In this document: positions 37,302-64,000 of the stretch, in pieces
Layout: every line of letters starts with the position of its first letter
Numbering within the stretch: the first letter of the stretch is position 1
Source of the DNA: Candidatus Hydrogenedentota bacterium
GTDB lineage: Bacteria > Hydrogenedentota > Hydrogenedentia > Hydrogenedentales > JAGMZX01
Length of the DNA stretch: 64,000 nt
Assembly (NCBI GenBank): GCA_029556545.1
Contig: JAKQEQ010000193.1
Coordinates: 79,262-143,261, forward strand
Direction: 5' to 3'
Notes under the pieces: model-generated
Database searches by the model: none
What the model saw: only the letters and a program-made list of their open reading frames with translations
What the model was told of the DNA's origin: nothing
Translations under genes and position numbers: made by a program

Positions 37302-40300
37302 TCACGTTTTCCTCGTGAAAATGACGTAGAGGCACGGCATGAAGAACAGGGCCACCAACATTTCCATGCACAGACCGCCAATAGCGGCCGCCGCCATTGG
37401 TTGAAGCATGTCGCCGCCCTCCTCCAGATTCAGAGCCAGCGGCAAGAAACCAGCCATGGTGGTCACCGTTGTCATGAGACGAGGGCGAAACCGAATCCGA
37501 GCCGAATCGCGAACGGCTTCCATCGGCGTTTTCCCTTCTTTGTCCTGCAGTTCTCCTGCCAATGTAAGTAGGAGCACGCCATCGTTGACCGTTGCGGCGA
37601 TCACGACCAGAATGCCAATGATGACCGTCGCGCCGAAGGGCAATCCGGTCAGATAGAGCAGGAAGACGACTCCGGCAAGACTCAGCGGGACGCTTCCCAG
37701 AATCAGCCCAGGAAGCTTCCAACTGTTGAACTGTACTGCCAAGACGATGAAGGCAAAGAAGAGCGCGAAGGCCAGGACGGCAGATACCGACTTTCTCATG
37801 TCCGCCATCAACTCGGCCTGTCCGCCGAAGGATAGCGCGTAACCGTCCGGGCGGCCGCCCCGCTCCAAGGCTGTGGCCAGTTCGTTTCTGGCTTGGGCGA
37901 CGCTGACCCCGGCGGCATCGGCCTGTACGATGACCTGCTTGACCTGATCTTCCCGAACGATCTCGACCGGTCCAACGGCTTGTTCTACTCGCGCCACATC
38001 CCGAACCCGCAAATACTCCCCATCGAGGCTGGTGAGGGGTAGGTTCTCCACGTCTTGGCGGGAGACCATCTTTGCTTCCGGCACAAGGACGCGGATGTCA
38101 TAGTACTCGCCGCCGTCAAGATAGCGCGTGGGCACGGCCCCGCTGATGAGCGACCGCAGTGCCACGGCGACGTCGGAAACGGATACACCCAGTTCGGCGG
38201 CCTTGACGCGGTCTACACGCACTTGGTACTCGGGTTTGGTCAGATCCATCGACACGTACACATTCGTGAAGTGCGCCAGCTCGTTCATCGTTTTCGTCGT
38301 CCTGCGGGCCAAATCGAAGAGGGTATCCGTCTCCTGGCCTCGAATCATTACTTCGATGTCCGACTGACTCAGGCCGCGGATGCCTCGAATGCGTCTCTGC
38401 ATCACCATGGCTTTGGCGCCGGGGATAGCGAGCTTTCCGACCAGCGGGCGTAGGCGTGTAACGTATTCACCGGTACTCAGATCGCGCCCTGCCCGGGGAA
38501 TGAGCTGAATATCGAGTTCCCCCTCATTGGCGATCTCGTAGGTATACAAGCCGCGGACCAGTCCACCGGCAAGGGCGAAGCGGCTTTCGATCAAGGGGTC
38601 ATCGCCGATCTGTTTCTCGATTCGGCGCAGGACACGATCGGTCTCAGCCACGGAAGTGCCGGCCGGCATTCGCACCTTAACCATGAGACGGCCGTCATCG
38701 AGGGGCGGCAAGAACTCGCCGCCCACCCGGCCCAGGAGTCCCGCCGCCAGCACGAGCAGGGCAAGAAACGCAGGCAGGACAAGCCAGCGGCCACGCAATA
38801 CCCAGCCCAGCAGTCTGTCGTAGCCTTGTGAAAATCGCTCGAAAAACCGTTCAAATCGCGTCATGCGGGTTTGGCTTGATCGCCCGAAGAGCGTGGCCGT
38901 GAGCATGGGCACCACGGAAATGGCCAGCACAAGGCTGATTACGACGATACCGGACATGACCAGGATCAATTCGCGGAACAACAGGCTGGTCAGCCCGGGC
39001 ACCAGTAAAAAGGGCATAAACAGCGCCAGGAACGACAACGTGGCGGCGACAATGGCCGGCCCCACTTCGGCTGTGCCCTCCACAGCGTGGCTCGATGCGG
39101 TGGCCTCGGGTTGCTCGTGGCGGCGGCGGGTGATCCTTTCGAGGACAACGATCGCATTGTCCAGCACTACCCCGAGGGCCACGACCAGCCCGCCGAGGGA
39201 GAAGATGTTGAGCGAGAAGCCCGCCAATTTCATGAGACCGAAGTTGAGCAGAACGGTTAGAGGCAAGGCCACGACCATCACGAGTACCTGGCGAAAGCTG
39301 CCCAGGAACAGGTAGACGACCAAGACCAGCAAAAGCGCGGCTTGCAAGGCCGCGTTTCGCACCCCATTCAGCGCACTTCTCACGTACAGCGCCTGGTCCT
39401 CGATAATGCTCAACCGGATGTCAGCGGGCAGCGCTGCATTCAGTTCGCCGAGCTTGCGGCTGACCGCGTCCCCTACCTGGACCGTGTTGGCATCGGCCTG
39501 TTTGAGGATTGAGAGACTGATGCACGGCTCGCCGTCGAGGCGGGTGACGACACGCACTTCTTCGTGGCCGTCCTCGACCTGGGCAATGTCGTCCAAGCGA
39601 ACGGTTGCCTGGCCTTCCCGGGCGATGACGATCGAACGGATTTGATCTAGGTTCTCATACTCACCGACGGTCCGGGCAATGATTTCCTTCGTCCCGGACG
39701 TAATCCGTCCGCCGAATTGATCGACGTTCTCCTCGGCCAGCCGCTTGAGCACCAAATCCAGCGGGATTCGGTGCTTTTCCAAGGCCTCGGGCACAAGCAG
39801 CACGCGGATTTCGCGTTCGTAGCCGCCGACGATTTCCGTGCCCGCGACGCCCGGCACGGCGATCAACTGATCCTGAAGCGAACGGTCGGCCCAGTCGCGG
39901 AGTTTCGTGAGGTCCCACTGCTGGCTGCTCACGGCCAGTTTCATGACCGGCAGTTGCGAGGGATCGGCCTTGAACACGACAGGTTCTTCGATGTCATTCG
40001 GAAGATGTCGCCTGGCCCGAGCCATTGCAGCCAAAGCGTCTTGGTAGGCTACGTCTACATCCGCGCCGTACTCAAAACTCACCTCGAGCGTATACATCCC
40101 CTCGATCGCCGAAGATTCCAGGGAGTCGAGGCGGTCTACCGTAGCCATCTCGCGCTCAATGATTTCGGCGACGTTCTTATCGATCTCATCCGGCGTGGCA
40201 CCTCGCCACCAGATTGTGACCCTGACCAGCGGATAGGTGACACTGGGCAGGTAATCTACAGGCAACCGCCAAAGACCATAGAATCCCAGCACCACAAGGG

Positions 40301-40358
40301 CCAGCATGATGGCGCTGGTGGCTAGACGGCGATGAACCGCGTATTGCGTCAGTTTCAT
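37302..40358 (-). CDS. RND-family efflux permease (HAE1/AcrB-like)
   Basis: 1018 residues, full length. Twelve hydrophobic helices with large periplasmic loops; N-terminus TSAIMLALVVLGFYGLWRLPVDYLP; LGGLVVALGVVLDNAIVVLE is the conserved TM4 motif with Asp for proton relay; the final helices contain TVIIGILVVIAATVNDGVLLLTLA. The pump expels hydrophobic drugs or envelope components through a TolC partner. Its start overlaps the adaptor gene by four bases. Confidence 0.93.
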   Translation of the reverse strand: MKLTQYAVHRRLATSAIMLALVVLGFYGLWRLPVDYLPSVTYPLVRVTIWWRGATPDEIDKNVAEIIEREMATVDRLDSLESSAIEGMYTLEVSFEYGADVDVAYQDALAAMARARRHLPNDIEEPVVFKADPSQLPVMKLAVSSQQWDLTKLRDWADRSLQDQLIAVPGVAGTEIVGGYEREIRVLLVPEALEKHRIPLDLVLKRLAEENVDQFGGRITSGTKEIIARTVGEYENLDQIRSIVIAREGQATVRLDDIAQVEDGHEEVRVVTRLDGEPCISLSILKQADANTVQVGDAVSRKLGELNAALPADIRLSIIEDQALYVRSALNGVRNAALQAALLLVLVVYLFLGSFRQVLVMVVALPLTVLLNFGLMKLAGFSLNIFSLGGLVVALGVVLDNAIVVLERITRRRHEQPEATASSHAVEGTAEVGPAIVAATLSFLALFMPFLLVPGLTSLLFRELILVMSGIVVISLVLAISVVPMLTATLFGRSSQTRMTRFERFFERFSQGYDRLLGWVLRGRWLVLPAFLALLVLAAGLLGRVGGEFLPPLDDGRLMVKVRMPAGTSVAETDRVLRRIEKQIGDDPLIESRFALAGGLVRGLYTYEIANEGELDIQLIPRAGRDLSTGEYVTRLRPLVGKLAIPGAKAMVMQRRIRGIRGLSQSDIEVMIRGQETDTLFDLARRTTKTMNELAHFTNVYVSMDLTKPEYQVRVDRVKAAELGVSVSDVAVALRSLISGAVPTRYLDGGEYYDIRVLVPEAKMVSRQDVENLPLTSLDGEYLRVRDVARVEQAVGPVEIVREDQVKQVIVQADAAGVSVAQARNELATALERGGRPDGYALSFGGQAELMADMRKSVSAVLAFALFFAFIVLAVQFNSWKLPGLILGSVPLSLAGVVFLLYLTGLPFGATVIIGILVVIAATVNDGVLLLTLAGELQDKEGKTPMEAVRDSARIRFRPRLMTTVTTMAGFLPLALNLEEGGDMLQPMAAAAIGGLCMEMLVALFFMPCLYVIFTRKT

Positions 40359-41710
40359 CGGCCGACTTCCTTGGGTCTGTTTGGTCCATCGCCAGAACGC
40401 ACCGCGCCGGTCTTACCCTTAGACTGGCCATCGCCCGGTGCGCCAGGCAGGCGAATGTGCATGCCGTCTTTCAGTTTCTCGTGCCCCGACACGATGAGCT
40501 TGTCACCCGGATTGAGGCCGGAAACTATCTGGACCCGTCCACCTTCTTCGATGCCGGTCTGGACCTTGCGCTGGGAGGCCTTGCCGTCCATGGCGACAAA
40601 GACGACCGACGCGCCGGTGGGAGTGACAACGACGGCGTGAACCGGGACGACGATAGCATCGCGAACCGATTCGAGGATCAGCTGAACGCGGCCGAACATG
40701 CCGGGAACAAGCTCGACATCATCCGTGATCGTCAGTTCAATGGTCCGGGTCCTCATGCGTGAGTTCAATTCGGGGAAGACGCGCGCAACCTCCGCCGGCA
40801 GGCTCTTGCCGGGCAACGCGTCGAGCCAGACTTGAGCCTTCATGCCCTGGTGCGTTTCGGCGGCGTTGGCTTCCGGCACGGCGCAACGAACGACCAGGGA
40901 GGAGAGGTCCGCCATCTCGAGCAAGGGCGCCTTCATGGCCGCCATATCGCCCTGGCGGACGAAGACCTTGGTAATGGTTCCGGCGAAGGGGGCGACGATG
41001 GCGCATTCATTCAAACGGGCCTGGGCCAGCTCCAGTTTGGCCTGTGCTTCTTGGACCACCGCATCCTGAACGGCGACGGCCGTGCGCGTGAACCCGGCCT
41101 CAAGCATTTCGAGTTGGCGGTGTGCGGCATTCAGCCTCGCTTCCGCCGCCACCTGTTTGACGCGGCCTTTGTCGAGCTCCTCTCCCGGCAACGCCCCGGT
41201 TTCCACCAATTGGGCAACGCGTTCAAGGTCGCTCTCTTCGAACTTGGCGCTTTCCGCGGCTTCGAGGACGCCTTCGCGTGCCTTGCCTATTTCTTCTGGC
41301 CGCGTGCCGGCCTTCAGGTCGTCGAGTTTGGCGCGGGCCACCGTCAGCGCGGCTTCGGCGGCCTTGACCTCGGCCCTGTACATTTCCCGGTCGATCTCGA
41401 TGAGCTTCTGTCCTGCCTCCACCCGGTCGCTCTCGCGCCAGGGGCAGAACCCAATCGGACCTTCGACCATGGAACCAATTTGTACCGTTTCAATGGGTAC
41501 GACCTCGGCGGTAAGGTCAATCGAGCGGACGACCTCGCCTGTTGTAACTGTTTCCACGCTTACGAGCGGCACGTTCTTCTTCGCTTTTTCCTCATTGTCC
41601 GCACGGCCACAACCCGCCAAGACCAAGAAGAGTAAAAGGGGCGCCAGTGCCGCAGCCTGAGCCCAGACTCCCTTCCGTGCATATGATTCAATTGCATCGA
41701 ATGCGCTCAT
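40355..41710 (-). CDS. RND periplasmic adaptor (MFP) lipoprotein
   Basis: 451 residues. Lipobox LVLAGCG after an N-terminal hydrophobic helix. Order: barrel-sandwich part (DLTAEVVPIETVQIG), long alpha-hairpin rich in Ala/Glu/Arg (about residues 110-230), second sandwich half (APFAGTITKVFVRQGD), beta-barrel (FPELNSRMRTRTIELTI), membrane-proximal end. It bridges the RND permease and the outer-membrane channel. Overlaps the TolC-like gene upstream by four bases. Confidence 0.92.
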   Translation of the reverse strand: MSAFDAIESYARKGVWAQAAALAPLLLFLVLAGCGRADNEEKAKKNVPLVSVETVTTGEVVRSIDLTAEVVPIETVQIGSMVEGPIGFCPWRESDRVEAGQKLIEIDREMYRAEVKAAEAALTVARAKLDDLKAGTRPEEIGKAREGVLEAAESAKFEESDLERVAQLVETGALPGEELDKGRVKQVAAEARLNAAHRQLEMLEAGFTRTAVAVQDAVVQEAQAKLELAQARLNECAIVAPFAGTITKVFVRQGDMAAMKAPLLEMADLSSLVVRCAVPEANAAETHQGMKAQVWLDALPGKSLPAEVARVFPELNSRMRTRTIELTITDDVELVPGMFGRVQLILESVRDAIVVPVHAVVVTPTGASVVFVAMDGKASQRKVQTGIEEGGRVQIVSGLNPGDKLIVSGHEKLKDGMHIRLPGAPGDGQSKGKTGAVRSGDGPNRPKEVGR

Positions 41711-43374
41711 GGCCTGTTATCTCCCGTCGCCAGGTGAACCTGCGCCGTGGCGATATTGAAGTCTGCGAGCGCGCGATAGTAACTCGTCTGGACGCCAAGA
41801 AGGGCAGCCTGCGCGTCCAAGACGTCCACGATGGCGCCCTTGCCGTAGTCGTATTTAGCGCGTTCGATCCGCAGGCTTTCTTCCGCTTCCGCAATGCTCT
41901 TCTGGGTCACGCTCACGCGTTCGCTGGCGGAGCTTAGGTTAAGGATAGCCGTCTCGACCTCGATCTGTATCTGCAACTCAAGTTTCCTAAGGCGCTGCTG
42001 AGCTGCATGCAGCAGGGCGCGCTCCTTCGCAATCTGCGCGCGAATGCGGCCCCCTTCAAAGATCGGAATGTCCACCGTGATGCCGATTCTCCCCACATCT
42101 TCGAAATCGTCTGCGGGTTCTACCCCGACCTGCGAAATGCGAGTTGAAATAGTGCCCGTGCTGCTGCTGGTTGTCGTGATGGACGCTCCGCCCGGCAAGG
42201 GTGTGGTGGTGGACTGCGAAGTGGTTGTTTGGTCGCCGGATGTCAAGGTAGAAGAGCTTGAAGGCTGAGTGGCCGGTTCCCCTGATCCGCCTATTCCCCA
42301 CCGTCCTCCGTAGGACGCCTCCAGTGACACTTCCGGCTCCCGTTCCCCCCGTGCCACGTCCACACGTTTCGCTTGCGCTTCAAGGGCCGCCAACGCCGCT
42401 GCGTAGTCGCTGCGCTGTTGAAAGGCGCGCTTCAACTTGTCATCCAGCGTTGGCGCTAGCTCGAGAAAGGTCAACGTATCGCTTAGGGCCCAGTCGGAAG
42501 CATGGCCCGCATCGAGGCCAAGCAGGTTAGCCAGGAGTCGATGTGCTATTTCGAGAACATTTTTCTCCTGCAGCAATTGCTGTTCGACGTCCGCCAAACG
42601 GACTTCCGTGCGCAGCGCATCCACGCGCGCCGCCTTCTGCGCCTCGATAAGCTGTTCCACCCGATCGAGGTGCTCGGCAAGTGTCTTGCGGGAGAACTCC
42701 AGCGACTGGATTACATGTTTCTGCGCCAAGATGCCGTAGTACGTGCTCGCCACGTTGAAAACAAGCTCTTCCCGCGTGCGCGCGAGGGTATGGTCAGCGG
42801 CTTTGGCAAGCAATTCCGCCGCGCGAAACTCATTGACAATGCGCCCGCCGGCGTAAAGGGGCATCCGGACAATGACATCCGCCGAAAGAATGTCATCGGT
42901 GTAGTATGTCGCCCCTCCCGGCGACAAGGGCGCGGTCAAGCGCTGGGCATCTTGGTAGTGGAAATAGCTTCCCGTGACGTGAATGCTTGGCCACCGCCGG
43001 GCGCCTTTGATACGCGTCTCGGCTCGCGCCGCCTCCACGTCTGAAGCGGCCGCCAGGAGTTCGGGATTATTCTTCAGCGCAAGGGTGGTGCATTCTTCGA
43101 GAGTCAGCACCTTTGGCGCGGACGCGGGCAGCGCGGAAGGCGCTTCGGGGGTGGGCTCAGGGCCGGTGACCGGCTGCACATTTTCAGGTCGCATCACCGG
43201 CAGGTCCCTGTAGGGGTCCGTCGGAGCGACCGTCACACACCCGCTCAGCGTGAAGACGATGGCGGTCGCAACTCCGCGAAAGATAGCCTCCCTGAAACCA
43301 TGCTCCTGCACGCCAGGTCCAGCTCGACTACCGTCGCAAGTTGCTCGCCTGCTCTCAACATGGTCTGATTTCAT
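41707..43374 (-). CDS. TolC-family outer-membrane lipoprotein (RND operon)
   Basis: 555 residues. Signal with lipobox LSGC, then two outer-membrane-factor repeats (LTLEECTTLALKNNPELLAAASD; LRIERAKYDYGKGAIVDVLDAQAALLG). A Ser/Thr-rich low-complexity insertion (SSSSTLTSGDQTTTSQSTTT, about residues 366-400) is not typical. It supplies the exit duct for the RND pump. First gene of a three-gene operon. Confidence 0.9.
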   Translation of the reverse strand: MKSDHVESRRATCDGSRAGPGVQEHGFREAIFRGVATAIVFTLSGCVTVAPTDPYRDLPVMRPENVQPVTGPEPTPEAPSALPASAPKVLTLEECTTLALKNNPELLAAASDVEAARAETRIKGARRWPSIHVTGSYFHYQDAQRLTAPLSPGGATYYTDDILSADVIVRMPLYAGGRIVNEFRAAELLAKAADHTLARTREELVFNVASTYYGILAQKHVIQSLEFSRKTLAEHLDRVEQLIEAQKAARVDALRTEVRLADVEQQLLQEKNVLEIAHRLLANLLGLDAGHASDWALSDTLTFLELAPTLDDKLKRAFQQRSDYAAALAALEAQAKRVDVARGEREPEVSLEASYGGRWGIGGSGEPATQPSSSSTLTSGDQTTTSQSTTTPLPGGASITTTSSSTGTISTRISQVGVEPADDFEDVGRIGITVDIPIFEGGRIRAQIAKERALLHAAQQRLRKLELQIQIEVETAILNLSSASERVSVTQKSIAEAEESLRIERAKYDYGKGAIVDVLDAQAALLGVQTSYYRALADFNIATAQVHLATGDNRP

Positions 43375-43532
43375 TCGGTGCTCTCATTCTGCCGACGGTG
43401 CTCACGGTGACGCGTCTGAGTTGATTGTTGGCTTGAATTGGGTCCGTGCGCCTTCGCAGATTCATCTGGAACCATATCCAACGAGTTTGGCTTCATTGCC
43501 ATGCTCCTTTCTATCAAGTCCTATGCTGGCGG

Positions 43533-45011
43533 TCAAGAACCGGTGACAGGGCTTTGCCCCCGCACACGGTCCAACCATGCCTCGGCAATGAGGAGGTTCC
43601 ACGTGGCCTCGACCCGATTGGTCTCGGCGCGCGCGAGGGCGGTCTGTGCGTCGAGCAAATCGTTGATTGTCGCCGCCCCAACCTCATAGCGTGTGCGCGC
43701 CACGCGCATGCTTTCCAGTGCGCTCGCCACCTGAGTTTCAGTGGTCTGTACCGATTCCCATGTCTCAAGGACGGTGGAGTGGGCTGCCCAAGCCTCCTGT
43801 TGCACCTGAAGGATTAGTTGCCGAACCTCGGCTTCCTGACGAGACAGCTCAGCCTTGGCTCTGTTTACCTCATGCTTGCGGGAGAAGCCAGAGAAAAGCG
43901 TCCAGTTGAGGTTCAGCGCGATGGACCATTCCTCGTCCTCGGGCGGAAAATCGCTGTCGCGGTAGTCGTAGCCTGCTTCCGCATAGAGGCGTGGCCGGTA
44001 GGCGCTCTTCGCGGCAGCAACGCCTGCTTCATCCGCGGATATCTGCTGCAACGCGGCATTGATTTCAGGGCGGGCGTGTAGTGCCTCTTCAATGACCTTC
44101 TCGGGCACAGCCAATGCGGGAGAGGACGCCTGATGAGACCCGGTATCTATCTCGAATCTGGATGCGGCGGGGAGTCCCATGGCGATACTCAATTGTCCTC
44201 GCGTCGTGCGAGTCAGCCCCTCCGCGCGCGTTTGGGCAAGCGAAGCTTCGGCCACTTCGACTTCCGCCCGCAAGACGTCGGCCTTGGGTACCGCACCTGC
44301 TTCTCTAAGGCGTTGAGCAAGATGGAGATGAGCTTCGGCCCTTGAAAGGTTCTCTTCCGCGACAGTGTGCACTCGCATTGAAGCAGCCAAGCGGTAGAAG
44401 CTGCTATGAACTTCGAAGACGAGATCTTGTTGCATACGCTTCGCTTCTTCTTCAGCGGTGCTCTTGAGCGCGATCGCTCTTCTGTGTTCCGCTGCCCGGC
44501 GGCCACCGTCCACTATCGTGTAACGTGCGGCGAACCCGGCGAGCCAGTCGTCCGTGGGGCTGCTGGTGTTCGATGTCATTAGCTGTGTAAGGCCGCCGGG
44601 TAGAGATGAGCGGCGTTGCGACCGACTCCAGCCTGTCACAAAGGCGACTTCCGGGTAATAGGGCGCCTGGACGATGCCAATTGTCTCCTCGGCAATCACC
44701 ACACCCTGACGGGCTGCCAGGTTCACTGGATTTCGGTCCAGAGCGATCTGTAAGCACGCAGCCAGCGTCAGCGCTTCTGTTGAATGCGCATCTGCTGAAG
44801 CGTTGCTTTCCTGAGTTACCAAGCTTGGGCCGGAGGCGCTGGTCGGTGGCTCTTGGCTTGAAGAGCCCCGCTGACTAAGCGCTGGGGGAGTGTAGTTCTC
44901 AATGCTTGGTGCGACGATCTGGTTCGATGTGGCGCACCCGATAAGGGAGGCGCCCAAGAAGAGCAAGACCGGCAACGGCTGAACTCGCGCAGTTGTGTGT
45001 TCATGGAACAT
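43533..45011 (-). CDS. TolC-family outer-membrane lipoprotein (ABC exporter operon)
   Basis: 492 residues. Lipobox LIGC; ALTLAACLQIALDRNPVNLAARQ early and YEVGAATINDLLDAQTALARAE late, the two OEP repeats. It ends the ABC exporter operon, 16 bases after the ABC-2 permease gene. Likely outer-membrane partner of the HlyD-type adaptor upstream. Confidence 0.9.
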   Translation of the reverse strand: MFHEHTTARVQPLPVLLFLGASLIGCATSNQIVAPSIENYTPPALSQRGSSSQEPPTSASGPSLVTQESNASADAHSTEALTLAACLQIALDRNPVNLAARQGVVIAEETIGIVQAPYYPEVAFVTGWSRSQRRSSLPGGLTQLMTSNTSSPTDDWLAGFAARYTIVDGGRRAAEHRRAIALKSTAEEEAKRMQQDLVFEVHSSFYRLAASMRVHTVAEENLSRAEAHLHLAQRLREAGAVPKADVLRAEVEVAEASLAQTRAEGLTRTTRGQLSIAMGLPAASRFEIDTGSHQASSPALAVPEKVIEEALHARPEINAALQQISADEAGVAAAKSAYRPRLYAEAGYDYRDSDFPPEDEEWSIALNLNWTLFSGFSRKHEVNRAKAELSRQEAEVRQLILQVQQEAWAAHSTVLETWESVQTTETQVASALESMRVARTRYEVGAATINDLLDAQTALARAETNRVEATWNLLIAEAWLDRVRGQSPVTGS

Positions 45012-45027: not shown

Positions 45028-46158
45028 TTAGGCTGAAGTTTTCTTGAAACGGCTCATAGCGAACCAGAGCGTGCCAACGCCCATGCAGAGCAACATGAGC
45101 ATCTGAGGCCAAAGCACCGAAGGCCCGACTCCTTTCAGGAAGATTCCTCTGATGATGACGAGGAAGTACCGCAGCGGGTTGCCGTAGGTTAGCCACTGGA
45201 CGGCCACGGGCATATTGGCGATGGGAAACATGAAACCGGACAGCAGGACGGCAGGGAAGTAGAAGAAGAATGTGCTCATCATGGCCTGCTGCTGCGTGCT
45301 ACTCATGGTTGAGATGAGCAAGCCGATGCCCAATGTGGTCATGATGTAAAGGCCCGTCGCAACGAACAGGAGCAGCAGACTGCCGCGGATCGGGACCTGA
45401 AACCAGAATACGGCAACCAGCGTAATCAGCAGAACGTCGGCGAAGCCAATCACGGCAAAGGGGACCGTCTTGCCAAGTATAAACTCGCCCGGCGTGATGG
45501 GCGTCACCATGATTTGCTCCATGGTGCCGACCTCCTTTTCTCGGACCACGGCCATGCTGGTCAGCATGAGCGTGATGAGCATGACGAGGATGGCGATGAC
45601 GCCCGGCACGTAGAAGTTTCGACTCTCGAGGTTTTCGTTGAACCAAGCCCGTGTCTCAACAGTAAGCGGTTCCGCGGAGGATTTGCCTCCGCCTAGACGA
45701 CTCAGGCGGGTCAAGAGGACGTTGTTGCTGTAGCGGCCGACAATCTTGGACGAGTAATCGAGGATTATCCCCGCTGTGTTCGAATCGGTGCCGTCCACGA
45801 AAAGCTGGAGCTGCGTCATGCGCCCGCTGCGAAGATCGGCCTCAAAGCCATGGTTAAACCGGAGAACGGCCTTCACATCGCCACGGTCTATGAGGCTCTG
45901 CGCCTCTGCATCACTTGTCACGTGGCAAGCGAGGTCGAAGTACTCGGTCTCGGTGAACTGTGCCGTCAATTCGCGGCTGGCAATGCTGCTGTCCAAGTCG
46001 TAGACGCCAATGGGGACGTTCTTCACGTCTGTGGTAACGGCATACCCGAACACGAGCACTTGAACGATGGGCATCACGAAGATGACCGCCCTCATCCGCG
46101 GATCTCGAAATACCTGAATGAACTCCTTGATTAGCATGTATTTGATTCGCTCGAACAT
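45028..46158 (-). CDS. ABC-2 type permease (YbhR-like)
   Basis: 376 residues. One N-terminal helix (VIFVMPIVQVLVFGYAVT), a large extracytoplasmic domain, then five helices, with MVTPITPGEFILGKTVPF typical of ABC-2 exporters. Last-but-one in the operon; three bases separate it from the other permease. Confidence 0.92.
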   Translation of the reverse strand: MFERIKYMLIKEFIQVFRDPRMRAVIFVMPIVQVLVFGYAVTTDVKNVPIGVYDLDSSIASRELTAQFTETEYFDLACHVTSDAEAQSLIDRGDVKAVLRFNHGFEADLRSGRMTQLQLFVDGTDSNTAGIILDYSSKIVGRYSNNVLLTRLSRLGGGKSSAEPLTVETRAWFNENLESRNFYVPGVIAILVMLITLMLTSMAVVREKEVGTMEQIMVTPITPGEFILGKTVPFAVIGFADVLLITLVAVFWFQVPIRGSLLLLFVATGLYIMTTLGIGLLISTMSSTQQQAMMSTFFFYFPAVLLSGFMFPIANMPVAVQWLTYGNPLRYFLVIIRGIFLKGVGPSVLWPQMLMLLCMGVGTLWFAMSRFKKTSA

Positions 46159-46161
46159 CGT

Positions 46162-47316
46162 TTAGCCTTTCAAAGAAGTTGCGCTATTCAAGCGTTTCTT
46201 GAATTTCACATTGGCCAGGACGACCATTGCCCCGCCGAAAACGACCAGTAGTGCAGCCTCGACTCCCAGCACCTCCAGTCCCACGCCTTTGAGGTAAATT
46301 CCCTTCAGGAGCGCCACAAAATACCGGGCTGGGATGAGATACGTAACGATCTGGACCGGGCGCGGCATGTTTCCGATGTCGTACATGAAGCCGGATAGAA
46401 GAAACGACGGCAGGAACGTCAGGATCATGGCGAGTTGGCTGGCCAGCAATTGGCTCTTGGCCACGATACTGATCACCATGCCCAGCGCCAGCGCCCCGAC
46501 CAGGAACGCGGCCGAAACGCCGAACAACAGGGGCACGTTCCCGCGCAGCGGCACATCGAAGAGAAACTCGCCCATGAGCACGGCCAGGAGAACGTCGAAC
46601 ATTCCGACAGCGAAGTAGGGCAGAAGCTTCCCCAGAATGAGTTCGGGGCCTTTGACCGGCGTGGAGATGAGTTGCTCCATGGTGCCCTGTTCCCACTCCT
46701 TGGAAACCGTGAGCGAGGTCAAGAGCGCGGCAATGACCATCATGATGACCGCGATAAGGCCGGGAATGATGTAGTTCTTGGACTCGAGGTCCGCGTTGAA
46801 CCAAACTCTCGGACGGAAGTCGATGGGCTCCCCGGGAGCTTTGCCCACGATGCGTTGTGTCTGTTCGATCAGGACGTCTTTCGAGTACCCCATGGAAATC
46901 GCATCGAGATAGCCCATGGCGATCGTGGCGGTGTTGGAATCACTACCGTCTACGATAGCTTGCACCCGCACCGGACTGAGGGACTTGGCGCGTTCCGCGA
47001 AGTCCCGCGGGATGACAAGACCAACGAGCGCCTCGCCGGTATCGATGGCGTGCTCGATGTCGTGATAGTCGGTCGCGAATTGACGCAATTCGAAATACCT
47101 GGACCCAGTGAAGTACGCCAGAAACTCCCGGCTTGCAGGCGTCCCGCTCTGGTCCCAGGCGATGAGCGGCACGTTGTCCACGTCCAGCGTGAGGGCATAC
47201 CCGAACAGAACGAGAAGCAACATGGGTATCGCGACGGCCATGCCCAGACTTCTCGGGTCGCGCAGGATGTGAATGAATTCCTTGCGAGCGATTGCCCAAA
47301 CACGAATGGGTTTCAT
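46162..47316 (-). CDS. ABC-2 type permease (YbhS-like)
   Basis: 384 residues, same architecture as the downstream permease: N-terminal helix GMAVAIPMLLLVLFGYALT, soluble region, QLISTPVKGPELILGKLLPY, then helices. Overlaps the ATPase gene upstream by four bases (translational coupling). Together the two permeases form the membrane half of a Ybh-type exporter. Confidence 0.92.
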   Translation of the reverse strand: MKPIRVWAIARKEFIHILRDPRSLGMAVAIPMLLLVLFGYALTLDVDNVPLIAWDQSGTPASREFLAYFTGSRYFELRQFATDYHDIEHAIDTGEALVGLVIPRDFAERAKSLSPVRVQAIVDGSDSNTATIAMGYLDAISMGYSKDVLIEQTQRIVGKAPGEPIDFRPRVWFNADLESKNYIIPGLIAVIMMVIAALLTSLTVSKEWEQGTMEQLISTPVKGPELILGKLLPYFAVGMFDVLLAVLMGEFLFDVPLRGNVPLLFGVSAAFLVGALALGMVISIVAKSQLLASQLAMILTFLPSFLLSGFMYDIGNMPRPVQIVTYLIPARYFVALLKGIYLKGVGLEVLGVEAALLVVFGGAMVVLANVKFKKRLNSATSLKG

Positions 47317-48284
47317 GCCGCCACCTCTTTCTGCGCGTCCTCGAGTTTGTCTCGGGCCTCGATGAGCGACACGAACACGTCTTCCATGGAGGGCGTGATG
47401 GCTTCCATGCGCGCAATTCCAAGACCTGCCTCGCTGAGTAGGTTGCGGATCTCCCGGGCGCCTTCGTCGGCGCCGGCTACGATGACATGAAGGCCTTTAC
47501 CGAACAGCGCTACCTCTTTGACGCTGTCGAGGCGTTCGATCAGTTCCATGGCGTCACTGGGCCGGTCACAGTGGATTTCCAGAACATCTTCCCGCATCGT
47601 GTCCCGCTTCAGGGATTCGGGCGTACCCATGGCAATGAGTTCCCCGCGGTAGATCAAAGCGATTCGGTCGCAGTATTCGGCCTCATCCATGTAGTGGGTT
47701 GTGACGAAGACCGTGACCCCTTTACCCGAGAGTTCGTAGATGAGATCCCAAAACTGACGCCGGCTGATGGGATCCACGCCCGAGGTCGGCTCATCGAGGA
47801 AGATGACGGGGGGCTCGTGCAGGATGGCGCAGCCCAGGGAAAGGCGCTGCTTCCACCCCCCGGACAAAAGGCCCGCCCGCATGTGGCGGTGTTCAACCAA
47901 TCCGGCCATCTGGAGCGCCCACTCCTTGCGTTCTTGTTTCTTTTCGGCGGGTATCCGGTAGATGCCGCTGTAGAAATCGATATTCTCTTCGACGGTGAGG
48001 TCCTCGTAGAGGGAGAATTTCTGGCTCATGTAGCCGATGTGGTCCTTGATCTTCTCGGCTTGGGTTCGCACGTCAAACCCCGCTACGACCCCCTCCCCTT
48101 CGGTCGGGGCAAGAATTCCGCATAGCATTCGGATCGTGGTGGATTTGCCTGCGCCATTGGGACCCAGAAAACCGAAGATCTCGCCTTTGGCGACCCCGAA
48201 GGTCACGTCCTTTACCGCACGGAAATCGCCAAACCTGCGGCCGAGGCCCCGTACAACAACGGCGTTCTCAGTTTGCGCGGACAT
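47313..48284 (-). CDS. ABC transporter ATPase, second of a split pair
   Basis: 323 residues from ATG 48284 (AAGGAG upstream). Walker A GPNGAGKST, signature LSGGWKQR, Walker B VIFLDEPTSGVDP, His-switch TTHYMDEAE. Overlaps the previous ATPase by 17 bases. In E. coli YbhF the two ATPase domains are one protein; here they are separate. Confidence 0.94.
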   Translation of the reverse strand: MSAQTENAVVVRGLGRRFGDFRAVKDVTFGVAKGEIFGFLGPNGAGKSTTIRMLCGILAPTEGEGVVAGFDVRTQAEKIKDHIGYMSQKFSLYEDLTVEENIDFYSGIYRIPAEKKQERKEWALQMAGLVEHRHMRAGLLSGGWKQRLSLGCAILHEPPVIFLDEPTSGVDPISRRQFWDLIYELSGKGVTVFVTTHYMDEAEYCDRIALIYRGELIAMGTPESLKRDTMREDVLEIHCDRPSDAMELIERLDSVKEVALFGKGLHVIVAGADEGAREIRNLLSEAGLGIARMEAITPSMEDVFVSLIEARDKLEDAQKEVAA

Positions 48285-49218
48285 CTGCGGTCTCCTTTCC
48301 TTCCGAGCGTCCCAGAACCGAGACGAAGACATCCTCAAGGCTGGGCTCAATCTCTCGCACCGACGTCACGGCAATGCCGTCGCGCGCAAGGATGATTTCC
48401 AGTTCGGGTGAAGTCTTCTCAGGCGTGGATGTCACCACGTGCACACGATCACCGAACAGGCCAACGCTGCCGGATGGGAGGTGGGCCTGGAGCGAGCGGG
48501 TCGCCTTTCGCGGCTCCGTGCAGCGCACTTCGAGTATCGAACCGCGCATGAGCCGTTTGACCTCGTCCGGCGTGCCAACGGCCAACAATTGGCCCTTGTG
48601 AATCAATCCAATGCGGTTGCACCGTTCCGCTTCGTCCAGATACGCCGTGGACACGAAGATAGTCACTTTCTGGCGCAACAACTTGTAGAGGATGCGCCAG
48701 AAGTCCCGGCGCGAAACGGGATCCACCCCGTTCGTGGGCTCGTCCAAAAACAGGACCTTGGGTGTATGAATCAGTGCGCACGCGAGCCCAAGCTTCTGCT
48801 TCATCCCGCCGGAGAGCTTGCCGGCCTGGCGCTTCTTGAAAGGTGTAAGGTTGCTGAACCCCAGCAGTTCCTCGACCTTCGCGTCTCGGCCGCGCCGAGG
48901 AACACTGTAGATGTCGGCATAGAAATGGATGTTTTCCAGAACTGTAAGGTCCGGGTAGAGCCCGAATCGCTGGCTCATGTAGCCGATATCCTCTTTAATG
49001 GCCTCAGCTTCGCGGACCGAGTGATGGCCGGCCACCCAGGCCTCACCCGACGTGGGCTCCATGATGGCGGTGAGTAGACGCATCGTCGTGGTCTTGCCGG
49101 CGCCATCAGGACCCACCAGACCGAAGATCTCGCCTTCCGCCACATCCAGGCTAATGGCATCCACAGCCTTCAGTTCCCCGAAGGAGCGCAAGAGGTTTTC
49201 AGTATGAATGGCAGACAT
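48268..49218 (-). CDS. ABC transporter ATPase, first of a split pair
   Basis: 316 residues. Walker A GPDGAGKTT, signature KLSGGMKQKLGLACALIHTP, Walker B VLFLDEPTNGVDP. The switch reads STAYLDEAE: His is replaced by Ala-Tyr, so this site may be the weaker of a heterodimer. Its ATG shares one base with the adaptor stop codon (TGATG). Confidence 0.94.
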   Translation of the reverse strand: MSAIHTENLLRSFGELKAVDAISLDVAEGEIFGLVGPDGAGKTTTMRLLTAIMEPTSGEAWVAGHHSVREAEAIKEDIGYMSQRFGLYPDLTVLENIHFYADIYSVPRRGRDAKVEELLGFSNLTPFKKRQAGKLSGGMKQKLGLACALIHTPKVLFLDEPTNGVDPVSRRDFWRILYKLLRQKVTIFVSTAYLDEAERCNRIGLIHKGQLLAVGTPDEVKRLMRGSILEVRCTEPRKATRSLQAHLPSGSVGLFGDRVHVVTSTPEKTSPELEIILARDGIAVTSVREIEPSLEDVFVSVLGRSEGKETADVRAN

Positions 49219-50381
49219 CAGCGTTCCCCTTGGGTGAGCCGTATCGCGGCGTCCGCCGGCATGCCAGGCTTGAGTTCGAAGTCGGGGTTGGGAATGTCTA
49301 TCTTCACCCGATACACCAACTTGACGCGCTCCTTGTCCGTCTGGACATTCTTGGGCGTGAACTCCGCCTCGGAGGAAATGAAGGACAGTACGCCTTCGTA
49401 GATTTTGTCTGGATAGGTGTCCGTGGTCACCGCGACCGATTGACCCAGCTTGACACGTCCCAGGTCGGTCTCATCGATATAGCCGCGCAGCCAGACATTT
49501 TCGAGATCGCCGATAGTGACGATGGGCGCCCCCGGCGTCACATACTCGCCTGGTTCCACATGGTCGGAAAGCACGATGCCAGCGAGTGGGGCGGCAATTG
49601 CGGCGTACGACAGACGCGTTTCCGCCAGCCGCAAGGCCTCCTCCGCGCGCACTTGTTCCGCACGTGCCTGTTCGATGGTCTCTTTGCGGGGTCCGGCAAG
49701 AACCTGATCGTGCCAGGCTTGGGCCTCGCCCAATGCCGCCCGGGCCTGAGCAATCTGTTCGTGACGTGGACCTTCTTTCACAAGGCGGAGATGTTCCTGC
49801 GCCTCAGCCAGAATTGCCTTGGTTGACCCATACGCAGCCAGGGCATTGTCCCGTTCCCTGGCGGACACGACATCTTGCTCGTAGAGTTGCTGTTGGCGTG
49901 CGTAGTCAACATCCGCGCGAGTTTTCTCGGCCTCGGCCCTCTGTACGGACGCACGCGCAGCCTCGATCTCCTGCGTACGGGAACCGGCCAGAAGCTCGTC
50001 CAGCCGGGCTTGGGCTTGCGCTACGGCGGCGCTGGCCCGAGCGATTTCCTCGGGCCGCGAACCTGCTTCAAGTTCAGCAAGCTTTGCGCCCGCACCGGCT
50101 ACCTCAGCACGCCGCATGGCTACCTCCTGATCGAGGTCCTCGCTGTCCAGGCGGGCGACCGGAGCACCCGCTCGAATAAGTTCACCCTCGGAAACCAGGC
50201 GGGATTCCACCCAACCCGCCACCTTGAAACTTACTTCGACGTCGGTCACCTCGATGTTGCCCGATATGCGGACCGCGCCTTGGGCGTTGTCCGAGCCATT
50301 TCGGCTGAACGCATACATTCCCACGACGCCCACCGCCAATAGCGGGAGCACGAGAAGTCTTTTCTTTCCTAGAGTTTTCAT
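49218..50381 (-). CDS. HlyD-family adaptor (YbhG-like)
   Basis: 387 residues from ATG 50381. One N-terminal anchor helix (LLVLPLLAVGVVGMYAF), ISGNIEVTDVEVSFKVAGWVESRLV, then a very long alpha-hairpin with repeated AGSRPEEIARA/AGSRTQEIEAA units, and a C-terminal barrel with LAGIVLSDHVEPGEYVTPGAP. First gene of the exporter operon, 14 bases after a palindromic operator. Confidence 0.93.
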   Translation of the reverse strand: MKTLGKKRLLVLPLLAVGVVGMYAFSRNGSDNAQGAVRISGNIEVTDVEVSFKVAGWVESRLVSEGELIRAGAPVARLDSEDLDQEVAMRRAEVAGAGAKLAELEAGSRPEEIARASAAVAQAQARLDELLAGSRTQEIEAARASVQRAEAEKTRADVDYARQQQLYEQDVVSARERDNALAAYGSTKAILAEAQEHLRLVKEGPRHEQIAQARAALGEAQAWHDQVLAGPRKETIEQARAEQVRAEEALRLAETRLSYAAIAAPLAGIVLSDHVEPGEYVTPGAPIVTIGDLENVWLRGYIDETDLGRVKLGQSVAVTTDTYPDKIYEGVLSFISSEAEFTPKNVQTDKERVKLVYRVKIDIPNPDFELKPGMPADAAIRLTQGER

Positions 50382-50394
50382 TGGCCTTACCTCT

Positions 50395-50412
50395 TGTGAA
50401 TGTCCATTCACA
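50395..50412. promoter_or_regulatory. Operator 2 of the TetR/CecR-like regulator
   Basis: TGTGAAT-GTCC-ATTCACA, a perfect seven-base inverted repeat upstream of the HlyD-type gene; identical half-sites to 52376-52393. Confidence 0.75.
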
Positions 50413-50454
50413 TGGAGCGCGAAGAAAACGGGGCGTCCGACGCGCCCCGCTTAG

Positions 50455-51000
50455 TTACTCCTTGACGAGTTCGTGAATCCATTGATGGTAGCGCTCGTGC
50501 GTACCCTCGCCCATCTCTTCTCTTTCGACAGCGTCGAAGGCATCCACGAGGGATTGCTGGTCGTCCGGTGTCAGCACCCGGTCGCCCATCGGAAACAGGA
50601 TGCCGTTTTCCTTTTGTATGTGGGCTTCGAGCAGGTCCGCGTAAGCCAGCAAATGTTCCTTGATGGCCTCCGCGGCATCCCCGTCGCCTTGCTCAAGCTG
50701 AGTCAACGCTTCGGCTATCGCCCGAACTTCGGCCCGGCCCAGTTCATGCTCCTGGAGCATGACGCCAATGGGACCATCGTCTCGGGGCAAACCGCGTTCC
50801 TCAAGCCTGGGAAATAGGTGTTTCTCTTCCTTGCCGTGATGGCAACGATCGACGAAGTTCCGGAAGAAGTCGGTGAATTCCCCGATTCGTTGGGCGTTCA
50901 CCTGACCGGTCTTATCGATCGCTTCCGCTTCGCCCCTCGCTGCCTTTATCACAATCAGCACGGCTTCGTGCTCGTGTTCGAGTATGTCTGCTGCTCTCAT
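50455..51000 (-). CDS. Hemerythrin-domain protein
   Basis: 181 residues from ATG 51000 (AAAGGAG). Ligand helices LEHEHEAVL, CHHGKEEKHLFP, LQEHELGR and HIQKENGILFP carry the His/Glu/Asp set for a diiron centre. Cytoplasmic O2/NO binding or iron handling is possible. Third gene of the TetR-DUF6448-hemerythrin operon. Confidence 0.9.
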   Translation of the reverse strand: MRAADILEHEHEAVLIVIKAARGEAEAIDKTGQVNAQRIGEFTDFFRNFVDRCHHGKEEKHLFPRLEERGLPRDDGPIGVMLQEHELGRAEVRAIAEALTQLEQGDGDAAEAIKEHLLAYADLLEAHIQKENGILFPMGDRVLTPDDQQSLVDAFDAVEREEMGEGTHERYHQWIHELVKE

Positions 51001-51047
51001 GACGTTGTCTCCTTTGCGCCGGGATCTCGTGGATCCCAAGACACTGT

Positions 51048-51710
51048 CTAGTGCTGATGAACCTCGGCGGTTTCCGACACAGATGTCTCTGCGTGTTCGT
51101 TTGCTTCAGCCTCGTGCCCATGGGCCGACGTCCCGGACATCACCACATGGAGGCGCTCAACATAGTGGATGTAATCCACGTAGGCCTCGACATACTTCCG
51201 GCCCGCCGCAACGCTGTCATCCTTATGTTTTTTCGCTTCGACCGCGCGTTGAAAACGCTCGTGTATGCTCGATCTAAGCTTGGCCTGCAGGGCCTCAACG
51301 AGGGCCCCGCCCGATTCGGACTCGAGCGCCTTCTCGGCGGCCTCAATTCCGGGCTCGACCGGAGTGTCGGCAGGCTTCAGGCCGGTGTACGGAGCTCCCT
51401 CGCCGGCTCGGTGCACGCGGACAAGGGTTTCGAAGAAATGCATGTCCACGAGTTCTTGCACGTCTTTGCCCTTTTGACGCGCCTGAAGGGTTCTGTCGAA
51501 GAGGGAGCGGATTCCTTCTTCGTCCTGCGGTCTAATCCACTTCAGGACAGGATCCACGTCCTTGGTTTCGATGGCCTTTTGGGCGTCCGTGACTACGGGA
51601 CCAGACAGGGTGTCACAGTGCGCCCACGCCACAGACGGAAGGAGGATGCTCGAGCCCACGAGCATCAGACCCATCGTGGTCAAGCCGGTAATCTTAGTTT
51701 TCATGTTCAT
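51048..51710 (-). CDS. DUF6448 secreted protein
   Basis: 220 residues. Signal peptide ending SVAWA-HCD; the mature part starts HCDTLSGPVV, with DMHFFETLVRVHRAGEGAPYTGL, the strongest family motif. His-rich tail (HGHEAEANEHAETSVSETAEVHQH) could bind metal. Function unknown; its presence under the regulator suggests envelope or metal stress. Confidence 0.8.
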   Translation of the reverse strand: MNMKTKITGLTTMGLMLVGSSILLPSVAWAHCDTLSGPVVTDAQKAIETKDVDPVLKWIRPQDEEGIRSLFDRTLQARQKGKDVQELVDMHFFETLVRVHRAGEGAPYTGLKPADTPVEPGIEAAEKALESESGGALVEALQAKLRSSIHERFQRAVEAKKHKDDSVAAGRKYVEAYVDYIHYVERLHVVMSGTSAHGHEAEANEHAETSVSETAEVHQH

Positions 51711-51711
51711 G

Positions 51712-52362
51712 TCAGTTCTCCTTCACTGCGAGCGCGAACTCCTCGGTCTCGGGCGTTCCGCATTCACCGTTTCTAATTGCCTCGCTGAAGACCCGCCAGG
51801 CTTTTTCAGCCTGCCGGGTAACATCGAAGCCACCATCGCTGACGTGCCAAAGGATCGCTGCCGGCTGAACGAGCCCGAGGAACATCACGGAGAGTTCGTC
51901 CGGGCTCAGGTCCGTACGAACCAAGCCGTCCTGCTGGGCCTCGCCGAAGAATCCCGCCACGTGGCCCAGGTACTTCTGGAGGAGTTCGTAGACCTGCGCC
52001 TTCCGTTGGGAATTCGCGCCATAGACCTCTTCGGAAAACACGACCCTGGGTATCCCCGCATTCTCGCGGATCAGGCGAACGTGCCGCCTCAGCAGCAATT
52101 CGAGCGCCAACAGCGGGTCTTTCGTTTCGTGTCTGACTGCCGCGACGTTGCCAAGCAGACGGGACTCGATGAGCCCCAATAAAGCATCGATGATGCCGTC
52201 CTTGTTATCGAAGTGGCGGTACAGCGCGGAGGGGACCAGGCCGACGCGCCGGGCAACGGCGCCGAGATTCAGCCCCTTCATGCCCTTTCTGGAAACCACG
52301 TCCAACGCCGCCTCCAAAATCTGCTCCTGACGAACCTCTGTGTCCAGCTTTTCTCTGGCCAT
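51712..52362 (-). CDS. TetR-family regulator (CecR/YbiH-like role)
   Basis: 216 residues from ATG 52362 (AAAGGAG). Helix-turn-helix RKGMKGLNLGAVARRVGLVPSALYRHFDNKDGI. C-terminal domain rich in Leu with NAGIPRVVFSEEVYG. In E. coli the TetR protein CecR controls the ybhGFSR exporter; here the same gene set and a shared palindrome at its own promoter and before the exporter argue for equivalent control. The gene ends one base before the DUF6448 ATG. Confidence 0.88.
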   Translation of the reverse strand: MAREKLDTEVRQEQILEAALDVVSRKGMKGLNLGAVARRVGLVPSALYRHFDNKDGIIDALLGLIESRLLGNVAAVRHETKDPLLALELLLRRHVRLIRENAGIPRVVFSEEVYGANSQRKAQVYELLQKYLGHVAGFFGEAQQDGLVRTDLSPDELSVMFLGLVQPAAILWHVSDGGFDVTRQAEKAWRVFSEAIRNGECGTPETEEFALAVKEN

Positions 52363-52375
52363 GTCCACGCTCCTT

Positions 52376-52393
52376 TGTGAATCTCTATTCACA
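52376..52393. promoter_or_regulatory. Operator 1 of the TetR/CecR-like regulator
   Basis: TGTGAAT-CTCT-ATTCACA, a perfect seven-base inverted repeat 13 bases upstream of the regulator ATG, likely autoregulatory. Confidence 0.75.
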
Positions 52394-52881
52394 TTATACC
52401 GTGTGAGGCGCGATTTGTCAAGCTGGAAGTCCTAGGCACTTAAGAAACGCGTAATTGCTCACAATAAAGGACTTATGCCAGTAGGTCTGCGAAGAAGACG
52501 GTACGCAATCTGTTGAATCTCCTTTCTGAAATGGCAATTATGTGAACATGTTTTCTCTTTTCTTGCCGCACGCGTGCGCACGTGATGCCAGGCAGTTTAC
52601 GGATCTTCCACCTTTGGGTTCCTGCAACAACGGTGGAGAGGTGGCCATCGCTCGGCGCGCCGGCACTAAAGAACACAACAGCAGCGACTTAGCCGCCAAG
52701 AGCTGAGATGCCGTTCTGAGAGCGCACGGACGCAAAGGCATCCCCGGCATCAACCCAACCTCCCTGATGACTTGGCGTTAGGCAACGGCGGGTGCCAGGG
52801 TACAGTCCAGGGTACACGTTCTTGCTGCCAGACGGTCGCGCCACCGGCCTGGCGCTCAGAAATGCGGTGTGGCGTAGGTCA
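52394..52881. other. Junction zone with possible decayed integrase tail
   Basis: No intact gene. The minus strand at about 52797-52817 encodes CTLDCTL in one frame followed by a stop, close to the motif at 25909-25930. An 11-base match to the tRNA-Met 3' region (acctttgggtt) is at 52610-52620. Confidence 0.3.
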
Positions 52882-63744: not shown

Positions 63745-64000
63745 CTAATCCCCCTCCTGCGCTCTGACCAACCCCATCGAGCAGATTATCCGTGGCTCTT
63801 GCACGTGGGCCTCTTCCTCGATAAGGCAAAGACGGCCTTCCTCGCGCAGGGCCAAGACAAGTTCGGCGAGCTTCTGGTCGTCAATCCCGATTCTCAATTG
63901 CCGATTCAGTGTGTCCGTGGCCACCTGGCGTAGTGGATAGCGGTAGATTTCGTCGATGGCCTTCAGAAGCTCTTCGGACTCGAAGAGCGTGTCCTTGACC
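63745..64000 (-). CDS. SNF2-type helicase, C-terminal end only (cut by window)
   Basis: Only the last 84 residues are inside the window: DTLFESEELLKAIDEIYRYPLRQVATDTLNRQLR and EPRIICSMGL then a stop. The sequence resembles the C-terminus of SNF2 helicases that precede Eco57I-type methylases (DrmD in class 1 DISARM is one). Identification depends mainly on the neighbour. Confidence 0.5.
   Translation of the reverse strand, partial: VKDTLFESEELLKAIDEIYRYPLRQVATDTLNRQLRIGIDDQKLAELVLALREEGRLCLIEEEAHVQEPRIICSMGLVRAQEGD

Follow-up and report, generated by a model that had tools for sequence, protein, structure and literature searches.

A Putative Palindromic Operator Shared by a TetR-Family Gene and a Ybh-Type Exporter in the Hydrogenedentota

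Genes and Sites at the Locus

The window analysed here, a stretch of 64,000 nucleotides from a Candidatus Hydrogenedentota bacterium, carries a series of genes, all on the minus strand, that runs from a TetR-family gene to a pair of permease genes (45028-52362). The first of them (51712..52362) encodes a predicted repressor with an N-terminal TetR_N domain (PF00440, E 8e-12, 45 bits against a cut-off of 24) and a C-terminal domain of the TetR_C_4 (YsiA-like) Pfam family. It is followed by a gene for a DUF6448 protein (51048..51710; PF20046, E 1e-60, 204 bits against a cut-off of 27) and by one for a hemerythrin HHE-domain protein (50455..51000; PF01814, E 8e-21), which scores 36 bits with the RIC model TIGR03652, far under its cut-off of 204.7.

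The exporter genes, assigned with Pfam and blastp, encode an HlyD/YbhG-type membrane-fusion protein (49218..50381; 33% identical to YbhG, E 5e-48), two ABC ATPases that resemble the N-terminal (48268..49218) and C-terminal (47313..48287) halves of YbhF (42%, E 5e-74, and 51%, E 3e-85), and two ABC-2 permeases, the YbhS-like permease A (46162..47316) and permease B (45028..46158), which were compared with YbhS and not with YbhR (41%, E 4e-82, and 33%, E 8e-61). By homology, the exporter is of the Ybh type, with a YbhG-like adaptor, two ATPase domains and two ABC-2 permeases. An outer-membrane efflux protein (43533..45011, minus strand; PF02321) begins 16 bases past permease B, and from this spacing we infer that it belongs to the exporter operon. 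Further along the same strand, Pfam identifies a second outer-membrane factor, an adaptor and an RND (AcrB-type) pump (37302..43374), which, being co-directional, are a possible extension of the operon; the co-directional genes that follow the ABC exporter (37302-45011) possibly make it one very large efflux operon.

A sequence-only reading of this DNA had reported that the palindrome TGTGAAT-N4-ATTCACA occurs exactly twice in the region, once before the TetR gene and once before the HlyD-type gene, and both statements hold. An exact pattern search of the 64 kb returned two matches, where none were expected, and 100 dinucleotide shuffles of the window returned none. These copies, to which no strand is assigned, are operator 1 at the TetR promoter (52376-52393; TGTGAATCTCTATTCACA) and operator 2 upstream of HlyD (50395-50412; TGTGAATGTCCATTCACA). 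With up to three mismatches allowed, one extra match appears, at 63879, and since the shuffles average 1.38 matches at that level, window matches of this quality are at chance level. Each operator ends 13 bp upstream of an ATG, that of TetR at 52362 and that of HlyD at 50381. The mechanical list of open reading frames gives upstream GTG starts (52392 for TetR and 50411 for HlyD), with which the operators would fall within the genes, and we use the ATG starts because homology to relatives supports them. A genome-wide search for further sites, which the same reading had proposed as a check, showed the window pair to be the only exact copies in the genome (6,116,581 bases, 195 contigs, 96% complete). 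The size of the regulon in this genome was gauged by a pattern search with up to two mismatches, which added one 1-mismatch copy and two 2-mismatch copies; the former (L003) sits within a long ORF and is therefore treated as chance.

Operator 1 adjoins a consensus sigma-70 promoter, TTGACA-17-TATAAT (52393..52421, minus strand), with 12 of 12 consensus matches. The last T of TATAAT is the first base of the operator, which overlaps the -10/start region, so that a bound repressor would cover the TetR start site. At operator 2, inspection found no recognisable -35 or -10 element. Between the hemerythrin gene and this operator, folding revealed a hairpin followed by a T-rich stretch (50426..50452, minus strand) that looks like a terminator; its fold of -18.5 kcal/mol has a z of -1.8 (10 of 200 shuffles were as stable), the same hairpin in two relatives reaches z values of -3.3 and -2.7, and a consensus terminator scan does not have it among its entries.

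Conservation across the Phylum

The closest named relatives of the window organism also place it in the Hydrogenedentota. In a search of 68 genomes of this phylum, the exact operator was found 15 times, in 14 genomes, and a reversed control pattern was not found at all. Eleven of the exact copies stand before a TetR relative, two before HlyD (G000 and G046), one in G001 and one in G029. The same genomes gave 22 TetR matches in 20 genomes (threshold E 1e-15). All 17 relatives with 36-100% identity and a start region present have the putative operator at their own promoter, within three mismatches and 11-18 bp before the start codon, whereas none of the four TetRs with 23-27% identity does, their best candidates having 4, 6, 6 and 7 mismatches. 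The 22nd match, a truncated gene in G001, lies outside this comparison, and the shuffles used in the upstream test preserve base content only. In most of these promoters, the promoter, operator and start codon keep the same register, and TTGA is kept at the -35 position in 14 of the 16 promoters displayed, with a shift of one base in G014. Most site-bearing TetRs also share the recognition helix xPSA(L/I)YRH(F/Y), and the controls have TQGALFRHF or similar. The presence of the site before 17 of 17 relatives and 0 of 4 distant TetRs is strong evidence that it is the operator of TetR.

Some of the 17 are not working genes, given that L071 (a short copy) and L064 (at a contig end) are fragments and that the G052 gene is frame-shifted. 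This last TetR (L017 4821-5468), which lies beside DUF6448 and hemerythrin genes, has its frame-shift near residue 20, through real loss or assembly error, and the G052 operators have one mismatch each.

Upstream of HlyD, 9 of 13 loci have a site with up to three mismatches, at a distance of 5-17 bp from the predicted start, and G064, G002, G022 and G014 have none; three more loci without HlyD on the stretch are outside this count. At the same threshold, none of 12 loci has a site before the first ATPase gene. There is thus strong evidence that the phylum commonly has putative operators in pairs, with one copy in front of TetR and another in front of HlyD. What the analysis establishes is where the sites lie and that they are linked phylogenetically to TetR and HlyD, and the original observation has been strengthened from two sites in one window to an operator conserved across Hydrogenedentota genomes. 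The earlier proposal that a shared operator links the TetR unit with the exporter gains accordingly: the two most likely answer to one predicted regulator.

Several individual loci are worth recording. In G001, which is of the same genus as the window, a decayed cluster (L015 8170-9425) consists of a truncated TetR, DUF6448, an exact operator and a permease remnant, the only exporter part on that contig. In G046, a second, short TetR (L085 5122-5406; 76% identical over 80 residues), whose operator has two mismatches, lies about 15 kb away from the intact cluster. In G003, the stretch around a TetR with an exact operator (L073 6313-7055) gave no HlyD match. G029, a genome without a TetR relative at E 1e-15, has an exact operator between two minus-strand ORFs (L083 3749-3766), which is probably a chance occurrence.

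DUF6448 and Hemerythrin

The gene content between TetR and the exporter varies. At 10 loci of the phylum (G002, G008, G009, G014, G022, G051, a second G052 locus, G053, G054 and G062), TetR is followed by HlyD and no DUF6448 was found on the stretch. In G000, G046, G052 and G064, DUF6448 comes after TetR, and in G001 it comes after a truncated TetR; hemerythrin is found in the TetR unit only in G000, G046 and G052. The contig with the DUF6448 locus of G052 yielded no HlyD. A site of their own, at up to three mismatches, was found upstream of DUF6448 in 0 of 5 cases and of hemerythrin in 0 of 3, and we therefore take the two genes to be carried along with the TetR unit in a few lineages. The suggestion that they belong to the regulon thus holds in part: by position only, they lie in the TetR-proximal unit of the window lineage and a few relatives, but not at the 10 loci without DUF6448, and they would be in the regulon only if they are co-transcribed with TetR.

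The DUF6448 protein of the window has, judged by eye, a signal-peptide-like start and a mature N-terminus HCDTLSGPVV. An AHCD motif after such a stretch, also by eye, is present in all 21 distinct DUF6448 loci (the window, L012-L016, L019-L027, L087 and L096-L100, with two duplicate contigs removed), giving a mature HCD, with S, D or Q and never C as the sixth residue. Internally, the window protein seems to consist of a helical module duplicated in tandem (hhalign 96%, E 4e-9, 48 columns). The ligands of nickel superoxide dismutase (NiSOD) are His1, Cys2 and Cys6, according to PMC5722923, and the corresponding sequence is A|HCQ(I/V)PCG in six NiSOD genes from the phylum. DUF6448 thus shares with NiSOD an HC mature N-terminus after a signal-peptide-like stretch, but it does not have the second hook cysteine, nor the HCxxPC hook.

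The N-terminus led us to consider DUF6448 as a homologue of NiSOD, an idea supported neither by profile comparison (hhalign probability 0.4%, with small alignments) nor by the Pfam matches of 14 DUF6448 proteins, none of which is a NiSOD family. Sequence searches of the PDB with DUF6448 gave no convincing relative, and two structure models of low to middling confidence (pLDDT 64 and 67) gave no confident fold match, NiSOD being absent among the fold matches listed for them.

A literature search found no paper naming DUF6448. The family appears in 47 plasmid records, part of which were opened, and in one locus on viral contigs when an alignment was used as query (none with a single sequence). 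In a neighbour survey that covered the loci other than L019, L020 and L087, hemerythrin or ric genes were near DUF6448 in the window lineage, on pPRO1, in Tetragenococcus osmophilus and in Sinorhizobium (the pSymA neighbour by eye), and adaptor and ABC exporter genes were near it in the window lineage, in Peptoclostridium and in a Bacteroidia MAG that has a TetR of its own, as well as about 3 kb away in Shewanella. Crp/Fnr genes adjoin some DUF6448 genes. For instance, on the Peptoclostridium plasmid (L099 735-5522), DUF6448 lies beside ATPase and permease genes, with an adaptor just upstream and a Crp/Fnr gene in place of TetR. A signal peptidase I gene follows DUF6448 on two plasmids of Gram-positive bacteria, from Aerococcus (L024 7007-8288) and T. 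halophilus (L098 4908-6484), and apparently also, by eye, on a contig labelled Listeria phage (L096 476-2010). The Salmonella, Marinobacter and Raoultella contexts have no hemerythrin/ric, exporter or signal peptidase neighbours. The recurrent association of DUF6448 with nitric-oxide genes, tripartite exporters and hemerythrin/RIC suggests a module for stress from nitrogen oxides or metals.

Plasmids beyond the Phylum

The best plasmid match of the window TetR is on Do28_1 of Desulfosarcina ovata (44% identity), where a 1-mismatch site precedes the gene and a NapC/NirT cytochrome and then a multihaem cytochrome follow it. The same island has hcp, norR, nitric-oxide reductase and a hemerythrin that is itself the best plasmid match (42%) of the window hemerythrin. 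The second match (34%), on pPRO1 of Pelobacter propionicus, is preceded by a site with one mismatch, and an exact site stands before a set of TolC, adaptor and ABC genes; the cluster adjoins nrfH, nrfA, hcp, ric, flavorubredoxin and DUF6448. A search of all of pPRO1 with the looser pattern TGTGAA-N6-TTCACA gave exact matches at these two sites and no others. This cluster has in common with the window an operator before TetR and exporter and a DUF6448 gene in the island, but its exporter set differs (one ATPase, one permease, TolC first), as does its recognition helix (SEANIYRHF). The remaining plasmid matches among the best 15 of 213 records are at 25-28%, and no operator was found before the gene of a weakly matching TetR on a Shewanella plasmid. 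By these comparisons, the two Thermodesulfobacteriota plasmids carry the same putative regulator-site pairing as the phylum. How their TetRs are related to those of the phylum cannot be read from the tree of 22 TetRs, given that 9 of its 19 inner branches are open and that the plasmid and Bacteroidia TetRs are on long branches.

These plasmid neighbourhoods, together with the hemerythrin, suggest a link to nitrogen oxides. Nevertheless, no operator was found at the nitric-oxide genes of pPRO1, and the best matches of the flanking ORFs on 16 stretches from the Hydrogenedentota included no nitric-oxide gene (a set without the window, L016 and L018, and with a crude choice of ORFs), which argues against a direct nitric-oxide regulon.

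Proposed Mechanism and Alternatives

We consider it highly probable that the adjoining TetR repressor has the two palindromes as its operators, so that it would control a stress unit and the exporter and be released by a ligand; DNA binding, repression, co-transcription and ligand release are what we infer from the sequence. TetR at site 1 would cover the -10/start region of the strong promoter that drives its own gene, and the unit of TetR, DUF6448 and hemerythrin would be off, as in autoregulation. With site 2 occupied, the unit of HlyD, two ATPases, two permeases and perhaps the outer-membrane factor would likewise be off. A small molecule would then free TetR from both sites, so that stress proteins and exporter would be induced together. 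The ligand would most likely be a toxic substance that the cell produces or encounters during nitrogen-oxide or related stress, which is the weakest step of the proposal. Because site 2 has no recognisable -35 or -10, the exporter unit could also be transcribed by read-through past the weak hairpin, with site 2 as a roadblock.

The missing canonical promoter at site 2, and the absence of the site from 4 of 13 loci, would equally suit regulation of the TetR promoter only, with site 2 a relic or weak roadblock and the exporter transcribed independently. We find this improbable, given that G000 and G046 have site 2 without a mismatch, that it recurs 5-17 bp before HlyD in 9 of 13 loci and that it has a perfect counterpart before the pPRO1 exporter. 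That a CRP/FNR-family regulator such as HcpR binds the sites, TetR being incidental, is highly improbable: the HcpR consensus of Desulfovibrio, wTGTGAnnnnnnTCACAw in PMC1274295, is alike, and Crp/Fnr genes occur near some DUF6448 genes, but the spacing here is TGTGA-N8-TCACA against N6 in HcpR, the site precedes 17 of 17 TetR relatives and is absent before the four other TetRs, and its overlap with -10/+1 fits a repressor. It is barely credible that, as the wording of the sequence-only reading would suggest, the system is orthologous to that of CecR from E. coli, with an operator that has drifted. The order of regulator, HlyD, ATPase(s) and permeases is alike and the exporter homology is clear, but the regulator belongs to the TetR_C_4 family, its best blastp E value with CecR is 1.3, and the cecR-ybhG region of E. 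coli has no site at up to three mismatches.

Beyond the TetR repressor and its two putative operators, the role of DUF6448 and the stress inducer are put forward as hypotheses. A wider reading, which we hold as tentative and rather unlikely to be right as a whole, is that DUF6448 is a secreted metal- or NO-binding protein whose His-Cys-Asp, freed by signal peptidase, would be a single-cysteine analogue of the NiSOD hook; that DUF6448, hemerythrin/RIC di-iron proteins and a tripartite exporter form a recurring nitrogen-oxide or metal stress module; and that this setting is tied to the operator-defined TetR family in the Hydrogenedentota and on two Thermodesulfobacteriota plasmids, and to Crp/Fnr elsewhere.

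Literature searches (the half-site with TetR, TetR with nitric oxide, and Hydrogenedentota efflux) gave no title describing such a TetR among the matches listed. A regulator-operator pair is predicted with unusual confidence, from sequence alone, for a phylum represented here by metagenome assemblies only, and the pairing can be tested in named strains, Pelobacter propionicus DSM 2379 and Desulfosarcina ovata. DUF6448, which is also found on enterobacterial plasmids, gains a testable stress setting and a testable metal-binding N-terminus.

Comparison with Known Systems

The solved structures closest to the window TetR include 1vi0 (YsiA), SlmA and a fatty acid metabolism regulator. Bacillus FadR/YsiA and SlmA share the TetR_C_4 domain with it and are among its best solved-structure matches, but it scores far under the NCBIfam cut-offs for both FadR (47 of 200 bits) and SlmA (55 of 120 bits), and, unlike for these proteins, its predicted target is an exporter.

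The closest parallel in organisation is the cecR (ybiH)-ybhGFSR system of E. coli, for which we refer to Yamanaka (2016) as cited in PMC7190983 and PMC6790063. In both systems, a TetR-family gene is accompanied by a YbhG-type adaptor, YbhF-type ATPases and YbhS-type permeases. The window has two ATPase genes where E. coli has a single fused YbhF, and, unlike in E. coli, DUF6448 and hemerythrin genes lie between regulator and exporter. The operator differs as well, the nearest candidate in the cecR-ybhG region having four mismatches. The sequence-only reading had described a conserved CecR-like logic of regulator and exporter, of which the part that stands is the Ybh-type exporter beside a TetR gene, as seen by blastp, and the part that does not is descent from CecR, with which the regulator has no significant match. 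The logic of regulator and exporter is alike, but the missing CecR match, the TetR_C_4 domain and the absence of the operator from the E. coli cecR-ybhG region mean that the regulator differs. By sequence comparison, then, the window regulator is not a relative of CecR beyond the TetR superfamily, and the system is a variant of the TetR-controlled tripartite exporter.
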